A DNA stretch of 64,000 bases, taken from positions 102,128,893-102,192,892 of the forward strand of contig CM077594.1 in the NCBI GenBank assembly GCA_039654915.1, given 5' to 3'. Position numbers and translations under genes: made by a program. Below are positions 1-63,727 of the stretch, in pieces. Position 1 is the first letter of the stretch, and each line of letters begins with the position of its first letter. Under the pieces are notes generated by a model that did no database searches, was not told the DNA's origin, and saw only the letters and a list, made by a program, of their open reading frames with translations. Source of the DNA: Aquilaria yunnanensis. Lineage: Eukaryota; Streptophyta; Magnoliopsida; Malvales; Thymelaeaceae.

Positions 1-82
1 TATAAGCTGTCATTTGTCTTTTCTTTTGACAATAATGTACTTGCTTCTGTAAGTGTAATAAACGCATTATCCCTTTCATCAC

Positions 83-90
83 TATAAATA
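83..90 (+). promoter_or_regulatory. TATA box upstream of the Cys-rich ORF
   Basis: TATAAATA lies 59 bases before the ATG at 149. It is preceded by CGCATTATCCC (63-73), which resembles the as-1/CCAAT part of pararetrovirus promoters, and by GACAATAATGTAC (28-40), a block that recurs in the repeat array before the LOG-like gene. A short ATG-initiated ORF (101-124) would be in the leader only if transcription starts unusually close to the TATA box. Confidence 0.5.
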
Positions 91-148
91 TGTGTTAGTT
101 ATGTTCGTTTCCTACAATCACTAATTTCTTTCTTTGCCTCCTTCATCA

Positions 149-697
149 ATGGAGTCTTCTCTTTCCGCCCTACGAAAGTATTTTCCTTCCTTCCCAATAA
201 ATGTTCTTAAAAAGATTTATCAAGCTAGATGTGAACGATTCAGAGTATTTATGCACAAAGGCATTCCTGATAATGTGCGGTGGCTAATTGAAGCTAAGGT
301 TCGTTCAGCTGGTGAAGTTCCCGAAGCGTTCTTTCCTCGTATGCCCGGCTTTGGTAAAAGCGCTTATGCCAAAAAAAGAAGAGCAAAGAGGCTAGGCGTT
401 TGTCATAATTGTGGATGGTGGATTTGCGGCAATAAATGTCGTGCTCCAGGAGTGATCACCAGAAATCGTAATGATAGAATAAGATTCATTAAGAATGGCT
501 TGCGTAAGGAATCTCTAGAAGATATTCGAGAGGTTCTTGAAGCGCATTCTTGCGGAATAGTGCAATTTGAGGTTGTTGGATTATGGATAATTTTTCAAAA
601 AGAACGAGATCGTTACAGTCTTGGGAATCTGACCCTAAACGACCCTGTTTGCCAGTTTGTGAGAAAGCTAGATGAGATGCAAATCACCGATTCATAG
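149..697 (+). CDS. Cys-rich basic nucleic-acid-binding-like protein (viral NABP type)
   Basis: This is a 182-aa intronless ORF. I chose the ATG at 149 because the in-frame extension to 134 starts with TTG. The N-terminal ~60 residues are mixed and helical-looking. A basic block (residues 75-81, KKRRAKR) leads directly into a compact zinc-finger-like cluster Cys85-x2-Cys88-x4-Cys93-x3-Cys97 followed by RAPG. A basic run immediately before a small Cys cluster is the hallmark of the C-terminal Cys-rich proteins of carlaviruses and relatives (Viral_NABP family), which bind nucleic acid and often suppress RNA silencing. The Cys spacing is tighter than in typical carlaviruses, so this is a distant resemblance. 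The frame is open for 549 bases in AT-rich DNA, which suggests past selection. It sits inside a retrotransposon internal region upstream of a LOG-like gene. A retroelement accessory protein convergent with the viral type is the alternative. Confidence 0.6.
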   Translation: MESSLSALRKYFPSFPINVLKKIYQARCERFRVFMHKGIPDNVRWLIEAKVRSAGEVPEAFFPRMPGFGKSAYAKKRRAKRLGVCHNCGWWICGNKCRAPGVITRNRNDRIRFIKNGLRKESLEDIREVLEAHSCGIVQFEVVGLWIIFQKERDRYSLGNLTLNDPVCQFVRKLDEMQITDS

Positions 698-740
698 AAA
701 GCATTGAAGCCATTACTGGACGCAAAGCCAGTGGAAGACG

Positions 741-1290
741 AGGATCAAAGTCACGATTACTGTACGTGCTAGCTGTCGCTTTTGAAATTTTCCTCCCCTT
801 TTGGTAATAATGTATCCACTCCTGACGTGAACCAAAGTCACGATTACTGTACGTACTAGCTGTCGCTTTTGAAATTTTCCTCCCCTTTTGGTAATAATGT
901 ATCCACTCCTGACGTGAACCAAAGTCACGATTACTGTACGTACTAGCTGTCGCTTTTGAAATTTTCCTCCCCTTTCAGCGATAATGTATCCACTCCTGAC
1001 ATGAGCCATAGTTACGATTACTGTACGTGCTAGCTGTCGCTTTTGAAATTTTCCTCCCCTTTGGCAATAATGTACCCACTCCTGACACGGACTACTGTAT
1101 ATAGCTGCTACTTTTGAAATTTTCCTTCCCTTCCAACAATCACATACCTACTCCTGACGTAAGCTACAGTAGTGACTACTGTACATGCTAGCAGCTATTT
1201 TGAAAATTTTCCTCCTCTTTTAACGATAGTGTACCCATACCTGACCAGAGTCATACTCGTGACTACTGTGTATAGCTGGCAATAATGTAT
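741..1290. repeat. ~87-bp tandem repeat array between two ORFs (possible enhancer/promoter array)
   Basis: The block AAAGTCACGATTACTGTACG recurs at 747, 834 and 921 and, mutated, near 1008, an exact 87-base period. It then decays into shorter units up to 1290. Each unit includes CTAGCTGTCGCTTTTGAAAT, CCTCCCCTTTTGGTAATAA and CCACTCCTGACGTGAA. TGACGT(G/A)A is an as-1/bZIP (TGA factor) core as found in caulimovirid and some plant promoters. The last unit runs into the TATA box of the LOG-like gene, so the array looks like that gene's upstream regulatory region. A minus-strand open frame through the array (713-1009) is just repeat read-through. Confidence 0.75.
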
Positions 1291-1331
1291 CCACTCTTGA
1301 AAATAAAATTATTGCCTTATCTCTTCATCTC

Positions 1332-1339
1332 TATAAATA
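1332..1339 (+). promoter_or_regulatory. TATA box of the LOG-like gene
   Basis: CTATAAATAT occurs 40 bases before the ATG at 1372, in the same context as the TATA box of the upstream ORF (pyrimidine-rich CTTCATCT, CTATAAATAT). The in-frame ATG at 1285 lies upstream of this TATA box, which argues for translation from 1372 with a very short leader. Confidence 0.55.
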
Positions 1340-1371
1340 TATCCTCTTTTCTCACAAGGATAAGGATAGGA

Positions 1372-2001
1372 ATGGAGAAAACCCCAACTCGTAAATCCCG
1401 AAGTATTTGTGTATTTTCTGGGGCTTTTCCTGGAAAAGATGAAGAGTATTTAAAGGCAGCCAACCATTTGGGTAGAGTATTAGCTGAGCGAAAAATACAT
1501 TTAGTTTATGGAGGAGGTAGTGTCGGATTAATGGGAGGTGTAGCATCAGCAGCATCTCTAGGAGGAAGTCAAGTTCTGGGCATTATCCCTGGACCTCTGA
1601 AATTTATTTCCGGGGGCACGATTGGAGAAGAATTAGTGGTTAAAAATTTGCAAGAGCGTGTGTTACAAATGCTTTTAAATGCTGATGCTTTTATCGCTCT
1701 ACCAGGTGGTTTTGGCACATTGGGAGAAGTCTTTCAAATTGCTTCCATGGCCCAACTTAATTTGCATAAGAAACCCATTGGGCTTTTAAATGTTAACAAT
1801 TTCTTTACAGGTCTGATAGCTTTTATGGATTATGCTATGCAGAAGAATTTCATATCAAGAGTGGCACGGCGAATCATAATATCCGCAACAACTGCTGAAG
1901 AATTGCTAGATAAAATACAAGCTTTTGTTCCTGAACCAGATCCAGCAATGATTCAGATAGACTGGACACGACAGTCTTTCCCGACCAGTTCACTCCCATA
2001 A
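1372..2001 (+). CDS. LOG-like cytokinin riboside 5'-monophosphate phosphoribohydrolase
   Basis: This is a 209-aa intronless ORF of the LOG (possible lysine decarboxylase) family. Family members release active cytokinin bases from cytokinin nucleotides in the cytosol or nucleus. Visible landmarks are the Rossmann-type start SICVFSG (11-17), the phosphate-binding YGGGSVGLMG (46-55), LGIIP (69-73), and PGGFGTLGE (111-119) in place of the usual PGGYGTLEE. Arg96 and Glu119, equivalent to the catalytic Arg and Glu, are kept; the surrounding MHxRK motif has become LQERV, losing its His and Lys. Length is close to plant LOGs (~210-230 aa). Ordinary plant LOG genes have several introns, so an intronless copy inside a retroelement implies capture through RNA. 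I chose the ATG at 1372 over 1285 because the TATA box lies between them. Activity cannot be judged from sequence alone. Confidence 0.82.
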   Translation: MEKTPTRKSRSICVFSGAFPGKDEEYLKAANHLGRVLAERKIHLVYGGGSVGLMGGVASAASLGGSQVLGIIPGPLKFISGGTIGEELVVKNLQERVLQMLLNADAFIALPGGFGTLGEVFQIASMAQLNLHKKPIGLLNVNNFFTGLIAFMDYAMQKNFISRVARRIIISATTAEELLDKIQAFVPEPDPAMIQIDWTRQSFPTSSLP

Positions 2002-2530
2002 TGGTCATCTACTCACCCTGTTGAAGTATTGTGGAAGAAAGAAGCGATCTGATCCGTTTTTCTTGTCCTTTAGTTTTATTATCAGCATTTTCTTTCGCGT
2101 TTCAGTTTTTCTTTTCAGGGAATTTCTTTTTTTATAATATAGCTTCGTCCATGCTGATATTAAAACCATAGGACAATGCCTTTAGGTTGGAATGGCTGAG
2201 TAAAGAGTAATTTTTATTACTCTTGAGACGCATCCTATTAGGTCTACTAGGCATAACATTTTGGGGTAGTTAAGCTTTAACCTTATTTGGATGACATATC
2301 TCACAAGGGAATCTATATTTACTGAAGAAAATATTAGATGAACCTTGGATATTGATTCCAAACATCCGTTCCCTTTACATAATTTGTCAGTGTTATTGTC
2401 ATCATCAAGATTCACTCGTTTTATCGAAGCCTAATTCTTTGCGCTCGCCAATTATGAAAATTCACACTTTCGAAGAAAATTATTCCAATTTCAATTGCTT
2501 TCATATAAATTTCGCTCGAGGTCCTAAGGA
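2002..2530. other. non-coding spacer after the LOG-like ORF
   Basis: AT-rich, with several T-runs just after the stop that could serve in 3' end formation. No ORF of note. The first degenerate copies of the downstream minisatellite begin near 2520. Confidence 0.6.
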
Positions 2531-5215
2531 AAGCTCCTTAGCCTCAAAATCAATTTTCATCATCGGGGTTTTAAGGATGGAACCTTTGCCTCGAAAACAA
2601 TCAATTTTCATCGGGGTTGTAAGGATGGAACCTTTGCCTCGAAAATAATCAATTTTCATCGCCGGGGTTTTAAGGATGGAACCTTTGCCTCGAAAACAAC
2701 CAATTTTCATCAATTCGGGGTTTTAAGGATGGAACCTTTGCCTCGAAAACAATCAATTTTCATCATCGGGGTTTTAAGGATGGAACCTTTGCCTCGAAAA
2801 CAATCAATCAATTCGAGGCTTTAAGGATGGAACCTTTACCTCGACATCAATCAATCAATTCGAGGTTTTAAGGATGGAACCTTTACCTCGACATCAATCA
2901 ATCAATCCGGGGTTTTAAGGATGGAACCTTTGCCTCGAGATCAATCAATCAATCCGAGGTTTTAAGGATAGAACCTTTGCCTCGAGATCAATCAATCAAT
3001 CCGGGGTTTTAAGGATGGAACCTTTGCCTCGAGATCAATTATCAATCCGAGGTTTTAAGGATGGAACCTTTGCCTCGACATCAATCAATCAATTCGAGGT
3101 TTTAAGGATGGAACCTTTACCTCGACATCAATCAATCAATCCGGGGTTTTAAGGATGGAACCTTTGCCTCGAGATCAATCAATCAATCCGGGGTTTTAAG
3201 GATGGAACCTTTGCCTCGAGATCAATTATCAATCCGAGGTTTTAAGGATGGAACCTTTGCCTCGACATCAATCAATCAATTCGAGGTTTTAAGGATGGAA
3301 CCTTTACCTCGACATCAATCAATCAATCCGGGGTTTTAAGGATGGAACCTTTGCCTCGAGATCAATCAATCAATCCGAGGTTTTAAGGATAGAACCTTTG
3401 CCTCGAGATCAATCAATCAATCCGGGGTTTTAAGGATGGAACCTTTGCCTCGAGATCAATTATCAATCTGAGGTTTTAAGGATGGAACCTTTGCCTCGAC
3501 ATCAATCAATCAATCGAGGTTTTAAGGATGGAACCTTTACCTCGACATCAATCAATCAATCCGAGGTTTTAAGGATGGAACCTTTGCCTCGAAAACAATC
3601 AATTTTCATCGGGGTTGTAAGGATGGAACCTTTGCCTCGAAAATAATCAATTTTCATCATCAGGGTTTTAAGGATGGAACCTTTGCCTTGAAAAGAATCA
3701 ATTTTCATCATCGGGGTTTTAAGGATGGAACCTTTGCCTCGAAAACAATCAATTTTCATCGGGGTTGTAAGGATGGAACCTTTGCCTCGAAAATAATCAA
3801 TTTTCATCATCAGGGTTTTAAGGATGGAACCTTTGCCTTGAAAAGAATCAATTTTCATCATCGGGGTTTTAAGGATGGAACCTTTGCCTCGAAAACAATC
3901 AATTTTCATCAATTCGGGGTTTTAAGGATGGAACCTTTGCCTCGAAAACAATCAATTTTCATCATCGGGGTTTTAAGGATGGAACCTTTGCCTCGAAAAC
4001 AATCAATCAATTCGAGGCTTTAAGGATGGAACCTTTACCTCGACATCAATCAATCAATTCGAGGTTTTAAGGATGGAACCTTTACCTCGACATCAATCAA
4101 TCAATCCGGGGTTTTAAGGATGGAACCTTTGCCTCGAGATCAATCAATCAATCCGAGGTTTTAAGGATAGAACCTTTGCCTCGAGATCAATCAATCAATC
4201 CGGGGTTTTAAGGATGGAACCTTTGCCTCGAGATCAATTATCAATCCGAGGTTTTAAGGATGGAACCTTTGCCTCGACATCAATCAATCAATTCGAGGTT
4301 TTAAGGATGGAACCTTTACCTCGACATCAATCAATCAATCCGGGGTTTTAAGGATGGAACCTTTGCCTCGAGATCAATCAATCAATCCGAGGTTTTAAGG
4401 ATAGAACCTTTGCCTCGAGATCAATCAATCAATCCGGGGTTTTAAGGATGGAACCTTTGCCTCGAGATCAATTATCAATCCGAGGTTTTAAGGATGGAAC
4501 CTTTGCCTCGACATCAATCAATCAATTCGAGGTTTTAAGGATGGAACCTTTACCTCGACATCAATCAATCAATCCGGGGTTTTAAGGATGGAACCTTTGC
4601 CTCGAGATCAATCAATCAATCCGAGGTTTTAAGGATAGAACCTTTGCCTCGAGATCAATCAATCAATCCGGGGTTTTAAGGATGGAACCTTTGCCTCGAG
4701 ATCAATTATCAATCCGAGGTTTTAAGGATGGAACCTTTGCCTCGACATCAATCAATCAATCCAAGGTTTTAAGGATGGAACCTTTGCCTCGACATCAATC
4801 AATCAATTCGAGGTTTTAAGGATAGAACCTTTGCCTTGAGATCAATCAATCAATCCGGGGTTTTAAGGATGGAACCTTTGCCTCGAGATCAATTATCAAT
4901 CCGAGGTTTTAAGGATGGAACCTTTGCCTCGACATCAATCAATCAATTCGAGGTTTTAAGGATGGAACCTTTGCCTCGAGATCAATCAATCAATCCGAGG
5001 TTTTAAGGATAGAACCTTTGCCTCGAGATCAATCAATCAATCCGAGGTTTTAAGGATAGAACCTTTGCCTCGAGATCAATCAATCAATCCGGGGTTTTAA
5101 GGATGGAACCTTTGCCTCGAGATCAATCAATCAATCCGAGGTTTTAAGGATAGAACCTTTGCCTCGAGATCAATCAATCAATCCGAGGTTTTAAGGATGG
5201 AACCTTTGCCTCGAA
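2531..5215. repeat. ~47-bp minisatellite with higher-order structure
   Basis: More than 50 head-to-tail units share the core TTTTAAGGATGGAACCTTTG followed by CCTCGA. Variable tails are AGATCAATCAATCAATCC, ACATCAATCAATCAATTC or AAACAATCAATTTTCATC. The core is partly self-complementary (GAGG...CCTC, AAGG...CCTT). Types recur in order: a five-unit block of about 235 bp repeats near 2915, 3130, 3320, 4110, 4340 and 4570, and the AAACAATCAATTTTCAT type forms separate runs at about 2550-2800 and 3580-4000. Long tandem arrays in the region before the 3' LTR are common in Ogre-type elements. Open frames through it (for example 3556-3912) are repeat artefacts. Confidence 0.92.
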
Positions 5216-5390
5216 AACAAATAATCAATCAATCAGTCCATCTTACAACGATAGGAGCTTTCCTATCGTTAGAGGTTCTAAGGACATTTCCTTAACCTAA
5301 AACAAATAATCAATCAATCAGTCCATCTTACAACAATAGGAGCTTTCCTATCGTTAGAGGTTTTAAGGACCTTTCCTTAAACCTTACTGT
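5216..5390. repeat. duplicated ~83-bp unit with perfect hairpin
   Basis: Two tandem copies begin AACAAATAATCAATCAATCA and contain GTCCATCTTACAACRATAGG. In the first, AACGATAGGA-GCTT-TCCTATCGTT (5247-5270) is a perfect 10-bp stem with a 4-base loop; the second has one changed base. Both end in a derivative of the minisatellite core (AGGTTYTAAGGAC). The pair bridges the minisatellite and the 3' conserved block before the PPT. Confidence 0.8.
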
Positions 5391-5477
5391 TTGGGCGGCG
5401 AGAACATTCTCAATGCCTACCTAAGCCGGACGAAATTTGGTAACGACTTTGCATACATCATGTCCCATGAAGCATGC

Positions 5478-5490
5478 AAAGGGGGGCAGC
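5478..5490 (+). other. polypurine tract of the retrotransposon
   Basis: AAAGGGGGGCAGC lies immediately 5' of the LTR start TGTTGACACC. This is the position of the plus-strand primer for reverse transcription and fixes element orientation as plus. Confidence 0.82.
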
Positions 5491-5992
5491 TGTTGACACC
5501 CAATTTCGTCCAGGTGTTTTAAAATTTTGAAAAAAATTTTATTAAAAAAAATTAATTTAAAAAAAAAATATATTACTATTATTATTAAAAAAAAATTAAT
5601 TAGTTTAAAATATATTTTTGTTTTGTGAAAATTTGATTTAAAATGATATATGTGTGAATATGTGTATGTTTGAAATAAAATAAAATTTCATGAAAAAATG
5701 ACAAAAAATTAAAAGTTTGAGGTAAAAATGACAAAATTGAGAAGTTGCGGAAAAAATTGACAAATTCTAAAAGTTCCAGGAGCATTTGGTAGTTTGTCAC
5801 ATAAAATTTTGAGCCTGCCGACGTTTTTGGCTCAAATTGACAGAAAACGACAAAATTGTCAAAATCAGAAGCTTCAGGAACTTATCCTGAGGCTGAGAGA
5901 CGTAAAGGACTAAAATTGTCATTTTACCAATTTAAGAGATAAGTTTGAAATTTTTTATTAATTTATCCATAAACAGTTCAGCTAAACTTCCT

Positions 5993-6000
5993 CTATAAAT
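5993..6000 (+). promoter_or_regulatory. LTR TATA box (putative U3/R promoter)
   Basis: TATAAATA is followed by AGCCCCCC about 500 bases into the LTR, upstream of a pyrimidine-rich leader-like region. It is the only well-formed TATA box I see in the LTR before the low-complexity arrays. Confidence 0.5.
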
Positions 6001-6479
6001 AGCCCCCCAAATTTTGTGCTGAACATAGAAAAAAAATAGAAATGAAGCTTAGAGCTCCGTTTTGAAAAAAGAAAAAATTATAGCCTAGGTCCCTGGCCCT
6101 CTTCTCTTCCTCTCCAGAAAACCTAAACCTTCTCTGACCCTTTTTTTTTTTTTTTTTTTTTTTTTCCTTTTTTTTCTCTCCCCCCGCGCGCGTGCGTTCT
6201 GTTCTTCACGTTTCCAGAATTTCAAATTCAGTTTTTAAGGGTACAACTCTCATTTAATCCTTCATCTTTTCAATTTTCTTTCACTTTGGTTACTAACCTT
6301 TTATTTTGTTCTTGCAGAATTAATTACTAACCCTTTTAATTTTTACTTGTTTGTTTATTATTTGTTTATTACTAACCCCTTTTTTTATTGTTGTTATTAA
6401 CTTACTAACAACTAACTTTTAATACTATTATTGTTACTAACCTTTTAATTTTTGCATTATTACTAACTTTTATAATTGT

Positions 6480-6990
6480 TGTTAACAATTAATTAACTTT
6501 TTATTATTGTTGTTAATTAATTAATTTAATTAACTTGGCTAACTTTTTATTATTGTTGTTAATTAATTTAATTAACTTGTCTAACTTTTTATTATTTTTG
6601 TTAATTAATTAATTAACTTGGCTAACTTTTATTGTTGTTAATTAATTAATTAATTAACTTGGCTAACTTTTATTGTTGTTAATTAATTAATTTAATTAAC
6701 TTGGCTAACTTTTATTGTTGTTAATTAATTAATTTAATTAACTTGACCAACTTTTTATTATTGTTGTTAATTAATTAATTTAATTAACTTGACTAACTTT
6801 TTATTATTGTTGTTAATTAATTAATTTAATTAACTTGACTAACTTTTTATTATTGTTGTTAATCAATTAATTTAATTAACTTGACTAACTTTTTATTATT
6901 GTTGTTAATCAATTAATTTAATTAAACTTGGCTAATTTTTATTATTGTTGTTAATTAATTTAATTAACTTTGCTAACCTTTATTATTATT
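6480..6990. repeat. ~48-bp AT-rich tandem array in the LTR
   Basis: Roughly ten units of TTAATTAACTTGGCTAAC plus TTTTTATTATTGTTG, drifting in length. Later units have GACTAAC instead of GGCTAAC. This is LTR-internal sequence with no coding potential. Confidence 0.85.
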
Positions 6991-7219
6991 TATTTTTAAA
7001 GTGGATGGCCAAAAAGCCCCACTTTATTATTATTAATTTTCCTTTATATAATTTTTTTTATTTAATTCACCTTTACCCTTACTTAAATAAATAAATGAAA
7101 ATTAAAAGAAGATTATTTTTTAAGCCTAATAAAAATAATTTTTTAAAAAGCCAATTATTTTTATTTTTCTTTTATAAATTGAATAATTATTTAAATAATA
7201 AATAACTTTCACTAAAAAA

Positions 7220-7412
7220 AACTAAAAGAAAGATAAGAAAAAGAAAAGAAAGATAAGAAAAACATAAAAAAAGAAAAGAAAGAAAGAAAAGAAAGAAAAG
7301 AAAAAGAAAAGAAAAGAAAAGAAAGAAAAGAAAGGAAAAATAAAACTAAAAGAAAGATAAAATCAAAAAGAAAGAAAAGAAAGAAAGAAAAGAAAGAAAA
7401 GAAAAGAAAATG
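7220..7412. repeat. AAAAGAAAG-rich purine tract in the LTR
   Basis: Nearly pure A/G strand built of AAAGAAAAG variants. It is low complexity, probably expanded by slippage. Confidence 0.85.
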
Positions 7413-7658
7413 TAAAGAATAAAAAATAAATTTTTTAGATTATTAATAAATCTAAAAAACAAAAGACTTACAAATTAGTAATAATAAATTCCATAAAAAT
7501 AATAATTATATAACTAACAATTAATTAAAGTAATTTCCATATCCGGATGATCCAGCAGGATCTACGGTTTGGAAAATATCAAACTTTCAAAATAAATAAA
7601 TTAAATAAAAAGATAAAAATCCATATTTTTACGATATGGATTAAAATTTTCACCAAAT

Positions 7659-7745
7659 TCCGTGTCCAAATGACTCGGCAGAGTCCATGGTTCGGAATAA
7701 AAATCTTCCGTGTCCAAATGACTCGGCAGAGTCCATGGTTCGGAA
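7659..7745. repeat. direct duplication, ~38 bp, in the LTR
   Basis: TTCCGTGTCCAAATGACTCG followed by GCAGAGTCCATGGTTCGGA occurs twice, separated by about ten bases. A related, diverged copy may lie at about 7538-7575 (ATCCGGATGATCCAGCAGG). Confidence 0.8.
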
Positions 7746-8068
7746 GTATAAAATTCTATACAAATTAATTACCAAAAATCCACATCCGATTAATTCAGTT
7801 AAAAATTCTAGATTGAAAATTAACTGAAATTTATTTAAAAGTAAAGCGAAACAAAATTAAAATCAACTAAGGTGCCAATTTTTGGGCGTTTTAACAAAGT
7901 TGTTTTAACGTAACCGTACTCCCGAACCCCCGAACTCTCGCAGACCAATATTTAAGGTGACCAATCGACCTAGGTAAACTGATTGGTGGCGACTCCCGAA
8001 AACCCGACGTTGCCACAATTTAAAATATAAAATAATTGTTTTTTTTTTACTAGTGTCAAGTGCCAACA

Positions 8069-9741
8069 ACTTTGTACCATTTTTAACCGCACTAGATTTT
8101 TAGAATGGCAAGAGTATGTTGTACTTTTACCCAAAATTTCATGGGTTTCTTTCCCCATGAAATACGCTTTGCAGTAGGGGGGAAGCTATCCTACATTGTG
8201 CCAAACTTCTACTTGAGCACAAACAATAGATTGGATCCTAAAAAGGATGAAATATGAAAAGAAAAAGTGGGAATCTTTGAACGTTCCTGTAAACACAAAG
8301 TAAATAGCACTCCACTTATTCGTTTATTAAAGTGAAAGGGTGATCTCCGTTTCGTTCGTCGTCAGATGTGGGGCGCTGGGGACCGTCTGATGTAGATGTG
8401 AAAAGGAACACTTCCATGATGTGTGGCTCCGATCGGGTGATGTGATTTGAGCTCCGGAAGCGAATTAACCATGGGGTGGTCCTTGGTTTCTGTGGGGCCT
8501 GACAATTAAGGCCCTTCTTCAATTAGATAGTCCAGGAAGATCCATAATACTTGACCGCACCAAATCAGAACATGTAGCAAATAATGGGGCCGCTGAATAA
8601 TGCATAAACTCGCACGTTGAACGTGACAGTCGATAATTCAATAAATTACAAATGCTACATTCATCACATACGCTCAAAATTGGGCAGCGTCAGATATTAA
8701 AAAGAGCATATATTAAAAGATATTTGGATATTGAATATATATTAAAAGATATTTGGATATTGAGTGGTGTTTATTGATAAAAAAAATATAGATTTATAAT
8801 TAGACATCAATCTTATGCGTTTAGGGAAGTGGTAAGTTTTTCGATGGGTCCTCAATCCTTGATTTGTGTTTCATTTTATATAATGTTTTTTTTTACACGG
8901 TACCTCTGAAATTTATTTCACAAAATAAACCAAACAAAACTTATTGAAAACCAAAAAACGTCAGGGGCCTACGTACGCTCGAGGTTCACAGTATAATCAA
9001 GGCTGTACATACTAGAAATTGAAAGGAAAAGGAAAGGAAAGACTGAGGGATTAAGTTCTACTTTAGAACCAATTTATTTTAATTTTTATATTTTTTGGTC
9101 CAAAAGCATTTTAATTTTATTTGAAAAATAATAATATGAGATACAATAATATATTGATCATAAAATTTTTATATATTATGAAATTTTTATGAGCTTTTTA
9201 AAAGCCTACAAGTTGTTTCACCTGAAGCACAATATCTTCTGGTTTCCTTGCTGGATTAGACGAGTATAGCCCGTTGTTATGCTCCTCCCATAGGAAACAT
9301 AATGGATTCTTTCATCACAATTCACAAGGTATATGGAATTTATTAACTGCGTGTAAAGAATAATACATATGCATGTAGCCCGATGAGGTCCCTTTTTAGA
9401 TCGTTGAGGATATATACAAACTAAATATGTTCACGAAACGAAAATTGGAGACGGTCATTTATTTCACTTCAACTCAGTTCTTTTAAGTTGTAAAGGGCAC
9501 AAAAGCGTCCCAAAACATCACATGAATAATCTGATCTACTGTAAGTAACTTGTACCAAATTGCACAAACACACACACATAAGTTGTAAAGGGCACAAAAG
9601 CGTCCAAAAATATTACGTTTAACCACTATCTTTTTTATCGTTTGAATGATGCGTTAAGTACTGAGTTATTTGATTTATTTATTTACTTTCCTGAAAAATT
9701 GAATCCTTTAGGATCTTAGTAAGACAAAAACATAAGGATCT
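8069..9741. other. intergenic, no gene seen
   Basis: Contains a direct duplication TATATTAAAAGATATTTGGA (about 8707-8760) and a 27-bp direct repeat TAAGTTGTAAAGGGCACAAA (about 9485 and 9580). A minus-strand open frame at 8316-8522 lies in the only GC-richer patch and is not recognisable. Confidence 0.6.
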
Positions 9742-14670: not shown

Positions 14671-16560
14671 GATTATAGCTAAAATGCAAAAAGATATTGA
14701 TCTTTTCCTTAACTTATAAGAGCAGATTTTTTTAGTTTTTACTTATTTTTTAACTTTTCACAAGTCATTTATATCATTTAGTATGAAACTATTACTAATT
14801 TATGAACTGATCTTAACACCGCCCTATAAATATTTGAAACAAAGACCTCCTAACAGCTCTAAAGTAATTAGCCATGAGGCCAAGCACTTGATTTTTTTTT
14901 CTTTTGCACATCTATAAAAAAGATGATTTTAGGCCACTTTTATGAATATTAACTTCCTCATATGGACGCTAGCATCCTAGGTACAGACAATTTTAGGCCT
15001 CGGTCATCTTTCTTCTTGTTTTTTATTTTTTTATAATTTAAAATCATTTACAAGTAGAAATTTGGGAGCTTATAGTTGAAATGTAAAAAGATACCATTCC
15101 ACTGGTATTTTCCTTAACTTATAAAAACATATGTTTTTAGTTTTTAAATAATTTTGTTATTTTTTCACAAGTTATCTATATTCATTTAGTATGAAACTAT
15201 TACTAATTGGCCAAAATGCATCATTAGTCCCTTAACTTTGTCAACTCGCGCGAGTTAGTCCCTCAACTTTGATTCATCATGACTTAGTTCTCTAACTTTG
15301 AAAATGATGCAATTTAATCCCTAAACTTTGATAAAGTGCGCGAGTTAGCCCATCAGTAGACGGGGACTACAGTGCAAAACACGTGACAGTAACTAAACTG
15401 CAAAATAAATAACACTAAATGCCAAAGCATATTTATCAGATGAAATAAATGACTAACATGAAGTTTCCCCAGTTATAAACCTGGATCTTCTTCAACCGAC
15501 GATAGAGTATCTGTCGTTCCCGTGACGTTGATCGACCAAACTCGGCCAGGAAGGATGATGGCGAGGTCGTAATCGGAGGTGGGATTAGGGCAAGAAATCG
15601 GAGGTAGAAGCAGATCCTTGACCGTTCAAGGGTTGGGTTTCGGTTTTTTGGACAACAGGGGGATGGCGATTGTTGTTGAGAGGTGAGTCTGGAGCAGATC
15701 CTTGACCTGTCAAGGGTTGGCTTTGTTTTGTTCCTATCTCGAATCGATCAGATCTGATTGTCGCTGTTCGTTTTGCTATTCTTTTTCCATTTCATTGCAG
15801 GGTCGTTGATGGACATGGCAGTGACGGCAAGCGAGGCCGATGGGCAGTGATGCGAGGTCCGACTGGAAAACGAGGCTGATGAGAGGGGAGGCGAGGACGA
15901 TGACGAGGCGAGGGGGGCAAGGACGACGACGAGGTAAGGGGAGGCGAGGTCGAAGGGAATGACACTGGGGAAGTAAGGCCAGTCGGCGGCGTTGGAGAAT
16001 ATAGCTGACGGCGAGGGAGAAAAGAAACGCTGCCAATTGGGTTTCATGACTGAATTGAAAGTATAAAATATCTAGGCACAAATGTAAACTACCAAATAAA
16101 GTTTAGTGACTTATAGCATAATTTTACCTCAGCAAGCCACTAACCCCGTAGCTCATTCCGTTAGCAAGGGACTAAGTCGCACCATTTTTCAAATTTAGAG
16201 GATTAGATCGTGCTAAGTCTAAGTTAAGGGACTAACTCGTGCGAGTTGGAAAAGTTAAGGGACTAATGATGCATTTTGGCCTTACTAATTTATGAACTGA
16301 GCCTAACACTGCGCTTTAAATATTTGAAACAAAGACCTCTTAATAGCTTAAAAGTAGCTAAACCATGAGGCCAAATGCTTGATTTTTTTGTTGCACATCT
16401 ATGAAAAAGGAGGATTTTAGGCCACTTTTATGAACATTAGCTTCCTCATGTGAGCATTAGCATCCTAGCTACAGACAATTTTAGGCCTCAGTCATCTTTC
16501 TTCTTTTTTTTTTTTAGGTATTCAAAATAATTTACAAATAGGAATTTTGGAGCTTGTAAT
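14671..16560. repeat. ~400-bp tandem duplication, second copy interrupted by a MULE
   Basis: Copy A (14671-15069) and copy B (15070-15208 plus about 16291-16560) share long stretches, for example TTTAGTATGAAACTATTACT, TATTTGAAACAAAGACCTC and CACTTTTATGAA. Copy B is split by the inverted-repeat element at 15209-16281. Copy A keeps the uninterrupted target (single TTACTAATT at 14792-14800). Confidence 0.88.
15209..16281. mobile_element. non-autonomous Mutator-like element (MULE), 1073 bp
   Basis: Terminal inverted repeats begin GGCCAAAATGCATCATTAGT at both ends and stay similar for about 65 bases. They are followed by further CTTAACTTTG / CGCGAGTTAGTCCCT subrepeats. A 9-bp target duplication TTACTAATT flanks it (15200-15208 and 16282-16290). 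The GC-richer centre (about 15490-16060) is purine-rich with GAGG/GACGA motifs; minus-strand frames there (15748-16081) are low-complexity and not identifiable. No transposase is present. Confidence 0.92.
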
Positions 16561-18274: not shown

Positions 18275-20385
18275 ATGGCGGAGACCGAAGAACCCTGGCT
18301 TACGGAGCCCAGTGGCTGCACCCTTGTCCACTCCGATTCGGGGACGGGTCCGGTGAACGGGAATTCAATGGAGGAAATAAGTTCAAGAGCTGAGATCGAC
18401 ACGTCTGCGCCGTTTGAGTCTGTGAGGGAGGCTGTGAGAAGATTCGGAGGAATCGGCTTCTGGAAGCCCTCTCCGCATAAGGTTCAACCCTCTGCTGAGG
18501 TTACACTTCTAGGCCCAAGTTTTGAAATTTATGGTTCTTTTGGATACTTTTAAGTAATTTCGCTGTGTTGAGTGCGTTATTTCCCATTTAACTTGTTTTA
18601 TAGGCATTGTTTTGTTTGAGAATTTGGTTATATACTCTTATGAGATTGAAATTGCAAATGAAGAAACTATGAGCCCAGAAGATTCTCTGCATACGGTTCA
18701 GTGTTCATACTGTTGGGTTTTTCCCACCTCTTCTTTCCTTTCAGCATAAATCTTGTTCTTTTACCAACAGAAATCGGAAGTTTCTACTACCTACGTAACT
18801 TTTCTACTATTACACTTTGTATCCGAGTCTTTATGATGCTGGATTTGATATTGTCCTGAGGGGTTTTTTCATGACCAAGCAGCCTGACGTGGAAAAAGTT
18901 GACATAGCAAAATTGGAAGAGCAGGCGGCAGAGTTGGAGAAAGATCTTGTTCTTAAGGAAAGGGAAACACTTGACGTGTTGAAAGAGCTTGAAGGAACCA
19001 AAACCATTGTGGAAGAACTAAAATCCAAGCTCCGAAAGGGAACACTTGAAGCCTCTAAGTCCCTAGAAATAGAACTGCACAAAGATGACAATAAGAATGC
19101 TATTGTGAATGAGGATGACAAAGAAAATCATCAAGGCAACGTTATTGGAAGTTTGAGCCGATGCCCGTCTTCTGCAGCAGGTCCAGTCTTGATGGAACTG
19201 AAACAAGCGAAGTTGAACCTTTCTAGGACAACCAGTGATCTGGCTGGTATTCGGGCGTCTGTTGAATCGCTGACCAAGAAACTAGAGAAGGAAAAGGTTT
19301 ATCTTGAGAAGACAAAAGAGAGGTTGTCTCTGAATTCCTCAAGGATGTCATATCTTGAAAAGGAGTTGAATGAAACAAGGCTGAAGCTGCAAGTGGCCAA
19401 AGATGCCGAAGCTAAAAGCAGTTTTGATAATCCTTTAGACATTTCAAAAGAGCTCAAGCAGTTGAGTTCGAAGGCTGAGCGTTTCAGGAAAATGGGAGAA
19501 GAGGCTCAAGATGGTGTTTCAAGAGCAATTTCTGAGGTCGAACAGACAAAAGCGAGGATGAAAACAGTTCAGCTGAGGCTAGTAGCCGCCAGCAAAATGA
19601 AGCAAGCAGCTAGAGCTGCAGAAGCTGTTGCTTTGTCAGAGTTCAAGGCTCTCTCAACTAGTGAGAGAGTGGCTGGAGCTCCAATTCAAGACGCTGAAGG
19701 AGTGACTATTTCGTATGAAGATTATACTGCTTTGACGTCCAAAGGTCAAGATGCTGTGGAACTTTGTGATAAGAGAGTGTTGCATGCTTTGGACCAAGTT
19801 GATGAAGCGGATGTCTCGAGGTTGGAAGTGTTAAAGAAGGTAGAGAAAGCCACAGAGGAGGTCAGAATTAGTAAGAAAGCTCTGGAGGAAGCATTAAATA
19901 GGGTGGAGGCTGCAAATAAGGCCAAGCTTGCAGTGGAAGAAGCTTTGCGCCAGTGGAGATCTGAGCATGGTCAGAGAAGACGGTCTGTAAACAGCTCTAC
20001 CAAGTTCAAGCATGCTTGCCATTCTCAGAGTGGCAGAGATGCTCGCATAGTTGATGTGAATGGACTGAATTTGGTTAACGATGGATCAATGCCTGTTCTT
20101 AAGTCGACCTTGTCAATAGGGCAAATACTGAGCCGAAAGCTGCTGTTGCCTGAAGACTTGGAAAGAGAGATGCCTACAGGAAAAGGCAAGGGGAAGCTAA
20201 ATGTGTCATTGGGCCAAATGCTCAAGAAGCAAAATTCTGATCTTACCTTGGGTGAGAAGACTGATAGAGAAAGCAGTCACAATCAATTTTCTGGGAAGAG
20301 GAAAAAGTTGGGGTTGGCACGGTTTTCTCAGTTCTTGGTGAGGGAAAATAAGAAAAAGAATAAGACCACGCTTAATCTTAGGTAA
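18275..20385 (+). CDS. WEB family (DUF827) coiled-coil protein, At2g40480-like
   Basis: Exons: 18275-18499 and 18883-20385 (575 aa). Exon 1 encodes the WEB N-terminal signature EIDTSAPFESVREAV followed by FGGIGFWKPSPHK. Exon 2 opens after GCAG with PDVEKVDIAKLEEQ and is almost entirely coiled coil (LEEQAAELEKDLVLKERET onward). It contains the family block SYEDYTALTSKGQDAVELC and ends in a Lys/Arg-rich tail. The exon 1 donor may instead be after 18481 (AAG/GTTCAA); both donors are phase 0 and neither is a strong consensus. Family members such as WEB1 and PMI2 act in the cytoplasm in blue-light chloroplast movement, but this subgroup is functionally uncharacterised. The exon 2 frame is open upstream to 18817 only by chance. 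Confidence 0.88.
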
Positions 20386-45729: not shown

Positions 45730-46738
45730 TCTAGGTGTTGTGCGAATATAACAGAGACTGCTCCTCTTCTCTTCTCTGCTCTGCTCTGCTCTGCTCCTCA
45801 CTCCTCACAATTTCCAGAGTTTTGCGATTGTCCCACATCCACACGGTCCACCAAGCTTCAATATTTTTCCTTGGAAAAAATCAGCCGGGACTTGGTGAGT
45901 GAGAATTCGGGAAAGTATTCTTCTTCATCATTTCAAAGATAGATTATCTACCTATCTTCTACTCTAGCCGGATTCCTTTCCTCCTACTTTGGATTGCCTT
46001 GTTCTTTTTCCTTGGCTTTCTCATCCTTGTTTAGATGCCCAGAAACGCTGGTATGCTAGAAAACACTCTTGCCTCTTTTTCTGTTTTGTTTTCTTTTTTT
46101 TTGTTGTTGTGGTTCATTCCCGCGTGCTCAAGCTACTCTGATTTCCTTTTTGAACCTCTCTCTCTCTCTTTGTTTTTCCCCCCTAAGGGTTGAACATTTG
46201 TGACTTTCGAATTCAAAAGCTTTCCTTTAATTTGAATGGATACAATTTGATGAATGGTTGAAATGGGGGCATAGGTAGATGACGCTGACAGTTGACTCTG
46301 GCATGGGTTTGGGTTGTAAGTTACATAACAACCATTACCACTCTTCTATCTGTTTTGGTTTCCTCTATCTTCACCTTATTAATGTGTTCCTTAGTACTAG
46401 TAGCGTTTCGTATAACTCACCACCTCAGACCAATTTGCTATCTGTATCCTTTTTCTAGTTAGTGACATACTTCTATTTGTTTCTCTTTCCTCAGGTCAAT
46501 ATCTAATTTGCGTAGACTTGTTCTAGCGGTGACATGCTTTAAACCAATGCGCGAGGCAATGGTGAAAGATGTGCTTGACAGCCGAACGCTATTCGTGTAA
46601 GGTTGATGTACCTGTGGTTGTTTGGGCCTGCACTTCAACTGTACAATATGATGTTCCTCTTTTAACTTGCAGCCCCCTTTAGGTACAACGATCAAACACC
46701 CGGTTTGGCTAGGAGCTGAGGTACTAGAAGGCCTTGTA
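45730..46738 (+). promoter_or_regulatory. CIPK 5' leader with a probable 5'UTR intron
   Basis: A pyrimidine-rich leader (CTCTGCTCTGCTCTGCTCC at about 45776) is followed by a strong donor TTG/GTGAGTG (exon end 45894). A strong acceptor TTTTAACTTGCAG ends at 46672, giving a ~777-bp intron. No ATG occurs between the acceptor and the start codon at 46739. A leader intron in front of an intronless coding region is inferred, not proven. Confidence 0.62.
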
Positions 46739-48118
46739 ATGGATACAAAAGGCGGTGTTTTGATGCATCGGTATGAGTTAGGGAGGTTGTTAGGCAAAGG
46801 AACTTTTGCCAAGGTGTACCATGCAAGGGATCTTGAGACCGGCGTAAGTGTGGCAATCAAGGTAATTGACAAAGAGAAAGTCTTGAAGATTGGCATGATG
46901 GATCAAATTAAGCGAGAAATTTCAGTGATGAGACTCGTTAGACATCCGAATGTTGTTCAGCTTCATGAGGTGATGGCCAGCAAAACAAGGATATACTTTG
47001 TTATGGAATATGCTAAAGGGGGTGAGCTCTTCAACAAAGTGGCTGGAGGCAAGCTGAAGGAAGAGGATGCAAGAAGGTACTTTCAGCAGCTAATTGGTGC
47101 TGTTGACTACTGCCATAGCAGGGGGGTTTGCCACCGGGATCTAAAACCCGAGAACCTGCTGCTGGATGAGCATGGAAATCTGAAAGTAACTGATTTCGGA
47201 TTGAGTGCCCTTGCCCAGTCCAAGCATCAAGATGGGTTGCTGCACACAGCCTGTGGAACTCCAGCTTATGTTGCTCCAGAAGTTATCTGCAGGAAAGGCT
47301 ATGATGGGTGCAAAGCTGACATCTGGTCATGTGGAGTTATCCTATATGTTCTTCTGTCAGGCTTTCTCCCATTTCAGGACTCCAATCTGATGGTGGTTTA
47401 CAGGAAGATACGTAAGGCCGAGTTTAAATTCCCAAACTGGTTCACCCCAGAAGAACGCAGACTACTGTCAAAAATGTTGGATCCAAACCCGAGTGCAAGG
47501 ATAACAATAGGAAAAATAATGGAGAATTCCTGGTTTCGCAAGAATTTACTCCCCACATCCAGCCTGACCAGAACCGAGGTAAAGGAAGCCATATCTCCTT
47601 TTGGAGCTGATGCTGATGTTGATGCTGCTTTGAGCCTGAAAAAGAGTGCTGCTGATGAAACAGAACAACAACTGGCCAAGCCTTGCAATAACTTGAATGC
47701 CTTCGGTATAATCTCCTATTCTGCGGGCTTTGATTTGTCGGGTTTGTTCGAGGAGAAACATGAAAAGAAGGAAGTTCAGTTCACATCCAACAAGCATGCG
47801 TCAACCATCATATCTAAACTTGAGGACATTGCGAGGTGTCTGAGACTGAAAGTGAAGAAGAAAGGTGGAGGATTGCTGAGAATGGAAGGCACGAAAGAGG
47901 GCAGGAAGGGTGTCCTGGGCATAGAGGCCGAAATATTTGAAATCACTCCGGACTTCCATCTGGTGGAGGTGAAGAAGAGCAGTGGGGACACCTTGGAGTA
48001 TCAGAAGGTGATGAAGCAAGAGCTTCGGCCGGCTCTCAGGGACATCATTTGGACGTGGCAAGGGGAGAGACAGCAACAAGACTTAGAGTTATCGCTGCCT
48101 TTTCTTCCAGATAGCTAG
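46739..48118 (+). CDS. CIPK: CBL-interacting protein kinase (SnRK3 family)
   Basis: 459 aa, intronless. The kinase domain spans about residues 12-270: [12 protein letters not shown] (P-loop, 19-30), VAIK Lys41, HRDLKPEN with catalytic Asp134, DFG at 152-154, and [10 protein letters not shown] in the activation segment. The NAF/FISL motif ([18 protein letters not shown], Asn320 onward) binds CBL calcium sensors. The C-terminal part holds the regulatory domain ending in [15 protein letters not shown]. CIPKs decode calcium signals with CBL proteins to regulate ion transporters and stress responses. The sequence is most like the intronless CIPK2/10/20/5 clade; exact orthology is not assigned. The residue before HRD is Cys131 where Tyr is usual. 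An in-frame open extension to 46667 spans the splice acceptor and is not coding. Confidence 0.95.
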
Positions 48119-62220: not shown

Positions 62221-63727
62221 CTACAATAATAATAATATGTATCATATGTATATTTTTATAATAATAATAATAATAATAATAATTTATTATTAATATTATT
62301 ATTATTATTATTATTATTATGTATAGAAAGTTTTGAAATTATAAAAATAAAGTAGTAGTAATATTTTTAAAACATTTATTACAATTAATAATTACAATTT
62401 AAAATATGTGTAAAAGCCCAAAACACCCACAAAGCCCAAACAAAACCCAAAACCCTAACCTAACCCATATTTATACCTAAATCTATCTCCCTCTCATTTC
62501 CACAGTCCCACCCTGCCGCCTCTCACCCCATTTTCTATCGCCTCTCACCTTCTCCTCATTCTCTCCGATTCTCTAGTCACCTTTCCTTCTCCTCCATGGC
62601 TACCGATCACGCTCCATCCGTCCCCAGCCTCGACTCACCTTGCCGCACCACCTCTTCTTCTCCTTCTTGGCCGCTGATCTACCCCTGCTGTTTTCCTCCA
62701 TTGTCTCTTCTTTCTGGCCACCGGTCTCCCTCCTTGCGTCCTCAACCCAGCCTCCTTACCTAACCGCCACGCCCTTCGCCGGATCACCGACGCCGGATCG
62801 CCTCTTCGTCTCGTAGACGATCCCTCTCAGCCTCTCTGCCTCACGGATGCGTGCTCATCTCCCAGCAGCGTTCACCTTCGCTTAGCAACCCACTGCCTAG
62901 CCCGATGCCGCAATGGTCTCCTTCGATCTTCATTGATTTTAACTGATTTTGTAATTTTTGAATTGATTTTTGTGTATAAACTTGTGGATCGGTTGTCTCG
63001 TTTTCATTTGTTATATGTGGTTGTTTCATTGTAGATCCGTTTGATTGATTTCGTAGATTTTGTAGATCCGGTATTTTGATTGTAGATTTAGTTTTAATTT
63101 TATGATTTTTTAGTTATTTTTGTCAAATTTTGTGAATTTTTGGTTAATTGTTGTGATATTTTTAATTCTATTAATTTTTTAATTTATTTTCAACTTTTAA
63201 AACTTCCGTGAATTTGAAATTTTTTATTAATTTTAGTGAACTTTTACCCAATTTTGTGAATTTTTTTTAATTTTGTGAGTTGTAGAAATATTATTATAAA
63301 TTTGTGCAATTTGCAATTTTTCAGGTTATGAATTTTTGTGAATTTTTTTATACTAATAAATTCTTTTTGAATTTTTATTGATTAGTTTTTGGTTTTCGTA
63401 ATATTAATTTATGTAATAATAAAATCTTAGTTATCTAATTTCTTTGCACGTTGGTAATGTGTTTGCACATTGGAAAATGTTGCTGTTATATGACTGATGG
63501 TAATTACCAATGTGCACGCGTTGGAAATTACCAACGCGGGTATTTTTGCACGTTGGTAATTTTTTTTTCCAACGAATGGTCTACTAACGCGCATTTACCA
63601 ACGGCTACGCGTTGGAAATTCAAAATTACCAACACTCAGCCGTTGGTAAATGCTCGTTGGTAAATGCCAAAATTTTAGTAGTGAACTCAAAATGAAAAAT
63701 GTTGTAAAGAATGTGGGACGGAAAGGA
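60738..63727. mobile_element. mariner-like element interrupted by a CACTA element
   Basis: Left end CTCTCCCTATCCTGGGTTGT after TA (60736-60737); right end, inverted, TCCTTTCCGTCCCACATTCT before TA (63728-63729). Both are diverged versions of the CTCCCTCCGTCCC mariner terminus. The body (60738-61428) has a pyrimidine-rich core and a (GA)n run near 61330. Its right part is displaced by the CACTA insertion at 61429-63683. Confidence 0.68.
61429..63683. mobile_element. non-autonomous CACTA (En/Spm-like) element, 2255 bp
   Basis: Left end CATTACTAAAAAAACTTGG; right end CCAAAATTTTAGTAGTG, so inverted CACTACTAAAATTTTGG. The 3-bp target duplication AAC lies at 61426-61428 and 63684-63686. Dense subterminal CGTTGGTAA/TTACCAACG repeats are present. 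It contains ATT/AAT microsatellites, a (GT)n run at about 62191-62220, and a pyrimidine-rich core (62440-62960) related to that of 32507-34509. No transposase frame. Confidence 0.9.

Follow-up and report, generated by a model that had tools for sequence, protein, structure and literature searches.

Organization of the locus

The window (the whole 64-kb stretch of DNA that was analysed) carries at its left edge two uninterrupted open reading frames on the plus strand, each behind a TATA box (CTATAAATA) and both upstream of a polypurine tract (PPT) and a 3' LTR; this arrangement, reported in a first-pass annotation of the same DNA, was confirmed in the sequence. ORF1 (149..697, plus strand) encodes a 182-aa NABP-like zinc-finger protein (Viral_NABP/Carla_C4). 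ORF2 (1372..2001, plus strand) encodes a LOG-derived protein of 209 aa with an altered base pocket and without an LxLxL tail. The longest ATG frame of ORF2 is 1285-2001, but comparison with related proteins points to the start at 1372.

Promoter-like regions were located on the plus strand at 27..91 (TATA box CTATAAATA at 82-90, ending 58 bp before the ATG of ORF1) and at 1277..1340 (TATA box at 1331-1339, 32 bp before the ATG of ORF2). The two regions align with each other with a score of 37, the maximum in 200 simple shuffles being 24. On both strands of the window CTATAAATA occurs seven times against 1.41 expected, a number reached in one of 100 shuffles. Both regions are regarded as putative internal promoters.

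A stretch of the plus strand starting at the ORF1 stop (695..738) is conserved in a second locus, L001 (2345-2388; see below). It is followed by 87-bp tandem repeats (746..1086, plus strand), which contain TGACGT at positions 823 and 910 and may act as an upstream element for ORF2. Degenerate copies were followed by eye to about 1310, and a third TGACGT lies past the repeats at 1155. The interval between ORF2 and the PPT is mostly taken up by a 47-bp unit repeated in tandem about 56 times (2567..5230, plus strand), the copies of which can fold into hairpins; the finding in the first-pass annotation makes no mention of this array. Two 85-bp repeats follow (5214..5380, plus strand), where inverted repeats were also read by eye.

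The PPT-like tract AAAGGGGGGCAGC (5478..5490, plus strand) directly adjoins the LTR (5491..8068, plus strand), which starts with TGTTGACAC at 5491, ends with GTGCCAACA at 8060-8068 and has its own CTATAAATA at 5993. A PPT and an LTR with TG..CA ends, as expected of a Ty3/gypsy LTR retrotransposon, thus occupy 5478-8068. No second copy of the LTR was found within the 64-kb window (a single 21-bp match lies at 63213), nor was there a second copy of bases 1-2500 or of the ORF1 and ORF2 proteins. A scan of the window for reverse transcriptase, integrase and protease motifs returned two isolated, chance-like YxDD matches, and Rfam gave no match in it. If gag-pol and a 5' LTR are present, they lie to the left of base 1. 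In this copy, ORF1, ORF2 and the LTR are presumed to belong together, as judged only by continuity, strand and the parallels described below.

ORF1 and its relatives

The ORF1 protein matched two flexivirus Pfam families above their cut-offs, Viral_NABP (E 4.8e-6, 27.1 bits, cut-off 23) and Carla_C4 (E 1.7e-4, 21.9 bits, cut-off 20.9), in agreement with its original assignment to a viral-type Cys-rich NABP family. In viral NABPs a basic stretch is followed by a Cys finger. The same layout was found in ORF1, where the finger (401..439, plus strand, aa 85-97) comes directly after the basic AKKRRAKRL. The protein therefore shares with the flexivirus NABPs (PF01623, PF05515; for example CVB p12) both the Pfam models and the order of basic stretch and finger. 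It differs from them in being encoded by a retrotransposon, in its length of 182 aa, in conserved N- and C-terminal parts peculiar to it and in the finger spacing C-x2-C-x4-C-x3-C. CVB p12, a carlavirus protein, is described in the cited text as activating host transcription and suppressing silencing (PMC7588395).

122 NABP relatives were scored, with identities of up to 89%, which rules out chance open reading frames; those that name an organism are from plants. Among the 120 listed, 40 are exactly 182 aa long and 57 are of 180-186 aa. One relative, P0100, is annotated as an ordinary plant gene. Of 39 aligned rows, 37 matched Viral_NABP and 34 Carla_C4 (E <= 0.01), and the finger pattern was present in 34, finger residues or the finger region having been lost in the other five. 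No relative was found in the viral contigs scanned with ORF1 alone and then with the ORF1 alignment.

ORF2 and its active-site pocket

ORF2 belongs to the LOG family, as originally proposed, with a Lysine_decarbox/LOG match of E 1.8e-30 and 2a33 (At2g37210) as its best PDB relative (9.3e-52). It contains PGGxGTxxE and the catalytic Arg and Glu (Arg96, Glu119). The adenine/prenyl pocket is not conserved: the positions of Met96, Lys100, Glu121, Glu125 and Trp129 of CgLOG are occupied by Leu, Val, Gly, Gln and Met, respectively.

The closest relatives were compared with cellular LOGs using two best-120 lists, drawn from 7829 and 7993 scored proteins; the cellular list apparently holds LOG1/3- and LOG8-type proteins only, and location in an element was shown for at most part of the 120 relatives. 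The catalytic pair is kept in 114/120 relatives and 120/120 cellular LOGs, and all six tested active-site residues in 4/120 and 120/120. Lys is found at the Lys100 position in four relatives and Glu at the Glu125 position in five, against all 120 cellular proteins in either case. The relatives are thus of the same family as the plant LONELY GUY enzymes AtLOG3 (2a33) and AtLOG8 (1ydh), with which they share PGGxGTxxE and the catalytic Arg/Glu, and most of the best 120 are unlike them in the replaced Lys100 and Glu125 positions and in a basic and LxLxL tail. P0197, P0219 and P0229 are annotated as host LOG genes. Scanning of viral contigs with the LOG alignment gave 30 loci, all at <=33% identity.

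LxLxL was found within the last 15 residues of 100/120 closest relatives and 0/120 cellular LOGs (101/120 relatives with a looser pattern or with the last 30 residues), and is usually preceded by a basic run. LxLxL is an EAR-type motif, which binds TOPLESS. The window copy lacks it. The missing tail in P0122, P0123 and P0183 may be an artefact of the gene models. Land-plant LOGs carry, according to the cited text, a distinctive C-terminal motif 8 (PMC11593424), and a search of the open-access literature found no report of an LxLxL tail on a LOG. In the LOG tree the element-like rows form one side of a branch (support 100/95), a single clade among the rows sampled, in which the full-pocket rows P0183 and P0190 branch first. 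This tree is the second of two; compared with the first, the long rows P0210 and P0082 were dropped and P0190 and P0183 added, and P0122 and P0123 are in neither.

The name 'cytokinin-activating' given to ORF2 at first is doubtful: the catalytic pair is retained, but the window copy has Val in place of Lys100 and Gly in place of Glu121. According to the cited account, alanine substitution of AMP-binding and catalytic residues of CgLOG, including Lys100 and Glu121 and with the exception of Ser19, nearly abolished activity (PMC4979012); these are alanine changes in a bacterial LOG. A plain cytokinin activator was rejected on these data together with the pocket replacements. The same evidence bears on the model of the first-pass annotation, a reading of the two genes in which an NABP activator/suppressor and a working LOG bring about a proliferative, cytokinin-rich cell state. 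The activities attributed to CVB p12 (PMC7588395, as cited above), the catalytic Arg and Glu in 114 relatives and the full set of six residues in four would suit such a function, but Lys100 is replaced in 116/120 and Glu125 in 115/120 closest relatives, Met96, Glu121 and Trp129 are likewise not conserved in the window copy, and two of the positions concerned are those that CgLOG hardly tolerates losing. We regard this reading as unlikely.

Retrotransposon context and recurrence of the pair

A scan of genome contigs yielded a single locus, L001, on one 3.3-kb plant contig misfiled in a bacterial MAG. It shows an RNase H end (recognized by eye), then an integrase and then an NABP. The integrase frame (~104-1594) matched rve (2.4e-16) and H2C2 (1.4e-12) in Pfam, and the NABP gene (1799-2347) lies on the same strand, 204 bp behind this Ty3/gypsy integrase. 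Pfam gave only H2C2 and rve in the integrase frame and no further domain between or after integrase and NABP. L001 has neither an LTR nor a TATA box before the NABP gene. Behind the ORF1 stop the window (695-738) and L001 align with a score of 38 (shuffle maximum 19); no such parallel was found behind the LOG gene (25, shuffle maximum 33), and the regions before the NABP genes do not align (24, shuffle maximum 28).

The NABP genes of the window and of L001 gave a dN/dS of 0.23 at a dS of 1.19 for this one pair, so that a ratio below 1, suggested in the first-pass annotation as a check for both frames, was obtained for the NABP only. This value argues against a chance capture in which transduced host and viral pieces are carried as functionless, dead-end passengers, as do the relatives of both proteins across several plant genera and the identical two pocket replacements and tail throughout a clade. 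The absence of tail and pocket residues from the window ORF2, the five NABP rows with damaged fingers and the great heterogeneity of extra ORFs in plant elements, as the cited text has it (PMC6317226), would be expected under such a capture, which we hold to be quite unlikely.

NABP and LOG-type domains were found in one gene model in P0082, P0103 (Citrus) and P0120 (Acer) using precomputed domains; on rescanning, P0082 fell just under the cut-offs (LDcluster4 24.9 of 26.3 bits, Carla_C4 18.4 of 20.9 bits). Among contigs of >3 kb (18 NABP and 16 LOG entries) two sizes, 8723 and 4511, were identical (null 0.00045), equal size being no proof of one contig; sizes under 3 kb, for which chance matches are expected, were not counted. 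In L001 no LOG was found in the 983 bp behind the NABP gene (the top tblastn match covered 13 residues at E 0.03), and the pairing is therefore not obligatory. The expected recurrence of the pair is supported by the three Citrus/Acer gene models and the shared contig sizes. Because relatives of each protein occur in several plant genera, integrase and NABP are linked in L001 and joint gene models exist in Citrus and Acer, the two genes are widespread retrotransposon cargo, and L001 bears out this part of the first-pass annotation.

The alternative named there, a virus fragment integrated in an unrelated element, or an older insertion inside it, is not favoured. ORF1 does match RNA-virus families and the window is without pol, but integrase and NABP share a strand in L001, on which context a stray virus insertion was rejected; moreover, LOG partners are multi-copy and dispersed, three NABP-LOG gene models come from two plant genera and the LOG partner is plant-type, its closest PDB entry being an Arabidopsis protein. 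We consider this origin very unlikely. It is highly improbable that the frames are domesticated host genes adjoining a solo or truncated LTR element, as their own TATA boxes and the annotation of P0100 and P0197 as ordinary plant genes might suggest: Reevesia pubescens accounts for 35/120 listed LOG relatives on 16 chromosome numbers (hand count from locus tags), and the integrase link in L001 and the PPT-like tract immediately ahead of the LTR likewise speak against it.

P0085 (Orobanche) is a gene model in which NABP is joined to an N-terminus without a Pfam match; this N-terminus resembles the end of a Gypsy protease. The integrase motifs of L001 resemble, in our estimation, those of Athila. 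An aRH domain marks the Tat clade in the cited text (PMC6317226), and since the part of pol present on L001 shows no further domain, Athila is considered likelier than the Tat/Ogre assignment made at first, a preference that concerns L001 and not the window's own pol. The element is probably of Athila type.

Proposed model

With some reservation, we favour the reading that the window opens within a Ty3/gypsy LTR retrotransposon, most likely Athila-type, of which it contains the 3' part from behind pol to the 3' LTR, with a cassette of a remodelled LOG and an NABP in the env position; the lineage would carry foreign genes where a retrovirus has env. The best reading of the cassette is that its two genes serve to manipulate the host, by a mechanism that may be pictured as follows. 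ORF1, a flexivirus-type NABP either captured or shared, would probably enter the nucleus by means of its basic stretch, bind nucleic acid through the C4 finger and, to judge from kinship with its carlavirus relative, dampen RNA silencing or alter host transcription. ORF2 would go back to a single uptake of a plant-type LOG in the clade, capture probably being followed by tail gain and then by pocket change. Most of its relatives would have retained the catalytic pair while the adenine/prenyl pocket changed and a basic and LxLxL (EAR-type) tail was acquired. Because of the altered pocket and the tail, most members are probably nucleotide-binding proteins in contact with the TOPLESS corepressor and no longer ordinary cytokinin activators; the early-branching full-pocket members may still activate cytokinin. 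Since the window lineage has lost the tail and additional pocket residues, the ORF2 seen here has probably decayed or been altered anew. The protein functions and the TOPLESS contact are predicted from sequence.

We put forward more tentatively, as a possibility, a counter-defence cassette in the env position of a widespread group of Athila-type plant retrotransposons, in which the NABP is a zinc-finger silencing suppressor or transcription factor common to these elements and the +RNA flexiviruses, and the LOG has become a nuclear nucleotide-binding protein that recruits or titrates TOPLESS and does not make cytokinin. If this were true, a retroelement would attack silencing and corepressor-based repression simultaneously, and RNA viruses and LTR retrotransposons would have traded a gene module.

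Comparison with known elements

The role of the extra ORFs of plant retrotransposons is a long-standing question, and here both have a recognizable, testable ancestry, one in a viral silencing-suppressor family and the other in an enzyme with countable pocket replacements and an acquired tail of repression type. Should the functions hold, plant retrotransposons would deploy virus-like effectors against host silencing, and a family now filed as viral would be common to LTR retrotransposons, in whichever direction the transfer went.

The first-pass annotation considered the pair undescribed. This holds for the NABP half, as no report of an NABP in a retrotransposon was found in a search of the open-access literature. 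Athila-like elements with LOGL4 similarity were reportedly described by Steinbauerova et al. in 2011. The LOG half is in print: LOG/YgdH was described inside Gypsy elements of Citrus and Populus (PMC9289625), the same LOG-family domain within Ty3/gypsy as here, and the available text of that report makes no mention of an adjacent NABP gene, an LxLxL tail or an altered pocket.

Like the Retand elements with antisense TRP28 ORFs (PMC11963269), the present element has a long region between pol and the 3' LTR, tandem repeats and extra ORFs; these ORFs, however, belong to different families from those of Retand, and the NABP of L001 is in sense. With the Athila clade of the OTA Ty3/gypsy elements it shares the non-chromovirus type, and most OTA elements, according to the cited text, contain extra ORFs as well as long non-coding stretches in which tandem arrays are frequent (PMC6317226). 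The extra-ORF survey of OTA elements described there took ORFs of >=250 codons, a threshold under which the 182-aa NABP and the LOG proteins of 209-217 aa fall.

Organization of the element

The first-pass annotation had placed two open frames, each with its own TATA box, upstream of a PPT/3' LTR junction, and this arrangement was recovered. ORF1 (149–697, + strand; 182 amino acids) scores above the cut-offs of two Pfam flexivirus nucleic-acid-binding families, ORF2 (1372–2001, +) encodes a LOG-like protein and the 3' LTR (5491–8068, +) lies directly behind the PPT-like sequence GGGGGGCAGC. A CTATAAATA box precedes ORF1 and ORF2 alike, the upstream regions of the two genes resemble each other and a third CTATAAATA box lies within the 3' LTR. 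Repeats of 87 bp at 746–1310, 5' of ORF2, include pieces of the promoter-like block and contain TGACGT motifs at 823, 910 and 1155, which we take to be reminiscent of as-1-type elements.

Between ORF2 and the PPT, approximately 56 copies of a 47 bp unit form an array (2567–5230). The units could form a hairpin of 7 + 4 or 6 + 4 bp (−11.6 to −13.2 kcal/mol for the six units folded). The outer arms in 53 of 56 units are CGAGG/CCTCG (26), CGGGG/CCTCG (25) or CAGGG/CCTTG (two), the last with a compensated base pair. The window opens, at base 1, within the element. Neither pol nor a second LTR was found in the 64 kb of the window, nor were further copies of ORF1 or ORF2.

The NABP-like protein and its probable Ty3/gypsy context

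A search with the ORF1 protein gave 149 candidates, and 122 relatives were scored at E ≤ 0.001, with identities as high as 89%. Among the best 120 of these 122, 40 are exactly 182 amino acids long, 57 have 180–186 residues and all those with a named organism are from plants (Xanthoceras, Populus, Acer, Citrus, Orobanche and Parasponia). In an alignment of 39 rows (the window protein and 38 of the 120 relatives), Viral_NABP was matched at E ≤ 0.01 by 37 rows and Carla_C4 by 34; 34 of 39 contain the finger C-x2-C-x4-C-x2-4-C, which is preceded in this family by a basic AKKRRAKRL-type stretch.

ORF1 probably belongs to a Ty3/gypsy element. A separate contig of 3,330 bp, L001, contains an integrase frame at 104–1594 (rve, 2.4e-16; H2C2, 1.4e-12) and, 204 bp behind it on the same strand, an NABP gene whose product has 110 of 182 residues in common with ORF1. 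A 44 bp stretch beginning at the NABP stop codon is likewise shared by L001 and the window. L001 is catalogued as part of a Candidatus Nomurabacteria MAG (DAIEQH010000041.1) and is evidently plant retrotransposon DNA contaminating a bacterial bin. For this one pair of NABP genes dN/dS was 0.23 (dS 1.19; Nei–Gojobori), and the protein has therefore been kept under constraint; the dN/dS below 1 proposed as a check for both frames was thus obtained for the NABP gene.

No LOG gene was found in the 983 bp behind the L001 NABP, where the best match (13 residues at 2967–3005 to part of the LOG relative P0136; E = 0.03) is either chance or a LOG remnant. The 204 bp 5' of the L001 NABP lack a TATA[AT]A box. 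By eye, this gap (1595–1798) holds a pyrimidine-rich tract ending in CTCTGCAG, the final bases being CAG. It may be a splice acceptor, so that NABP expression may depend on splicing in L001 and on a TATA promoter in the lineage of the window.

Recurrence of the gene pair

The pair recurs: the gene models P0082 and P0103 (both Citrus) and P0120 (Acer) are each annotated with an NABP domain followed by a LOG-type domain, and a fourth, P0119, shows this by eye. On rescanning, P0082 scored slightly below the cut-offs; its LOG part nevertheless has the typical C-terminal tail. Contigs longer than 3 kb (18 NABP and 16 LOG entries) have two exact sizes in common, 8723 and 4511; two shared sizes were reached by jittered sizes in 0.00045 of trials. 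Among the top 120 LOG relatives out of 7829 scored, 35 come from Reevesia pubescens and are spread over 16 chromosome numbers (hand count), which fits a mobile element and not a small gene family.

Remodelling of the LOG-like protein

The 120 best of 7829 scored ORF2 relatives were compared with the 120 best of 7993 scored hits to an Arabidopsis LOG3/LOG8 profile, assumed to be cellular. In the bacterial CgLOG, which provides the residue numbering, replacing the AMP-binding and the catalytic residues by alanine nearly abolished activity, with the exception of Ser19 (PMC4979012). Both the catalytic Arg and the catalytic Glu are retained by 114/120 ORF2 relatives versus 120/120 cellular LOGs. 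Lys100 is kept in four (Met, Ile, Leu and one Thr elsewhere), Glu125 in five and the set Met96, Arg99, Lys100, Thr119, Glu121 and Glu122 in four of the 120, versus 120/120 cellular LOGs in each case. The window ORF2 additionally lacks Met96, Glu121 and Trp129, losses common to its nearest relative, P0121.

An LxLxL motif lies in the last 15 residues of 100/120 ORF2 relatives versus 0/120 cellular LOGs (in the last 30 residues of 101/120 relatives); its frequency in shuffled sequences was 1.6%. A basic run immediately precedes it in 95 of the 100 tailed proteins, as in KKRKLDLSLRL. LxLxL is the EAR repression motif, which binds TOPLESS. The tail is not present at the end of the window ORF2 or in P0121, whose record may be incomplete at its end.

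A maximum-likelihood tree was calculated from 49 rows: the window protein, 25 relatives and 21 cellular LOGs drawn from the respective sets of 120, and two bacterial LOGs. The 26 element-like LOGs fall on one side of a branch with support 100/95, and an earlier quick tree with slightly different rows gave the same split; they have a single origin among the rows sampled, from which other plant LOG groups are probably absent. The first-branching element-like rows are P0183 and P0190, both with the full pocket; the others have the changed pocket. P0190 also has the tail. In P0183, which sits on a long branch, no tail is visible, and this gene model may be incorrect at its end. The early branching of these two rows suggests the order capture, tail gain, pocket change and then tail loss in the window lineage.

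Proposed function and relation to published elements

The p12 protein of chrysanthemum virus B activates transcription in the nucleus and suppresses silencing in the cytoplasm (PMC7588395); by this kinship ORF1 may protect the element against RNA silencing or alter host transcription. ORF2-type proteins would probably bind a nucleotide, the ligand no longer being the standard cytokinin precursor, and tailed members would probably contact TOPLESS, recruiting repression or titrating it. The window ORF2 has probably passed beyond such a function.

Gypsy elements with extra ORFs are known as a kind, and LOG/YgdH domains in those of Citrus and Populus are already published (PMC9289625), so the earlier claim of an undescribed pair fails for the LOG half. 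As far as searches of open-access papers go, it holds for the NABP half and the pairing: no report of an NABP gene in a retrotransposon, or of an LxLxL tail on a LOG, was found in them. The NABP half, the NABP–LOG pairing and the LOG remodelling therefore look new. A large survey of extra ORFs took only those of at least 250 codons (PMC6317226) and would miss both ORF1 and ORF2.

Other features of the window

Just 3' of the LTR, CCATGAAATACGCTTTGCAGTAGGGGGGAAGC (8155–8186) resembles the PPT region before the LTR (CCATGAAGCATGCAAAGGGGGGCAGC) and may be a remnant of another element. Two related blocks approximately 1.49 kb apart at 14792–16515 (pieces 88% identical), with a 96-nucleotide inverted repeat whose arms lie at 15209 and 16186, are possibly a nested or duplicated element. 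Two ordinary plant genes follow: a WEMBL-family gene (18799–20385), presumably WEB1/PMI2-type, and a kinase with a NAF domain (46652–48118), which we take to be CIPK-type.
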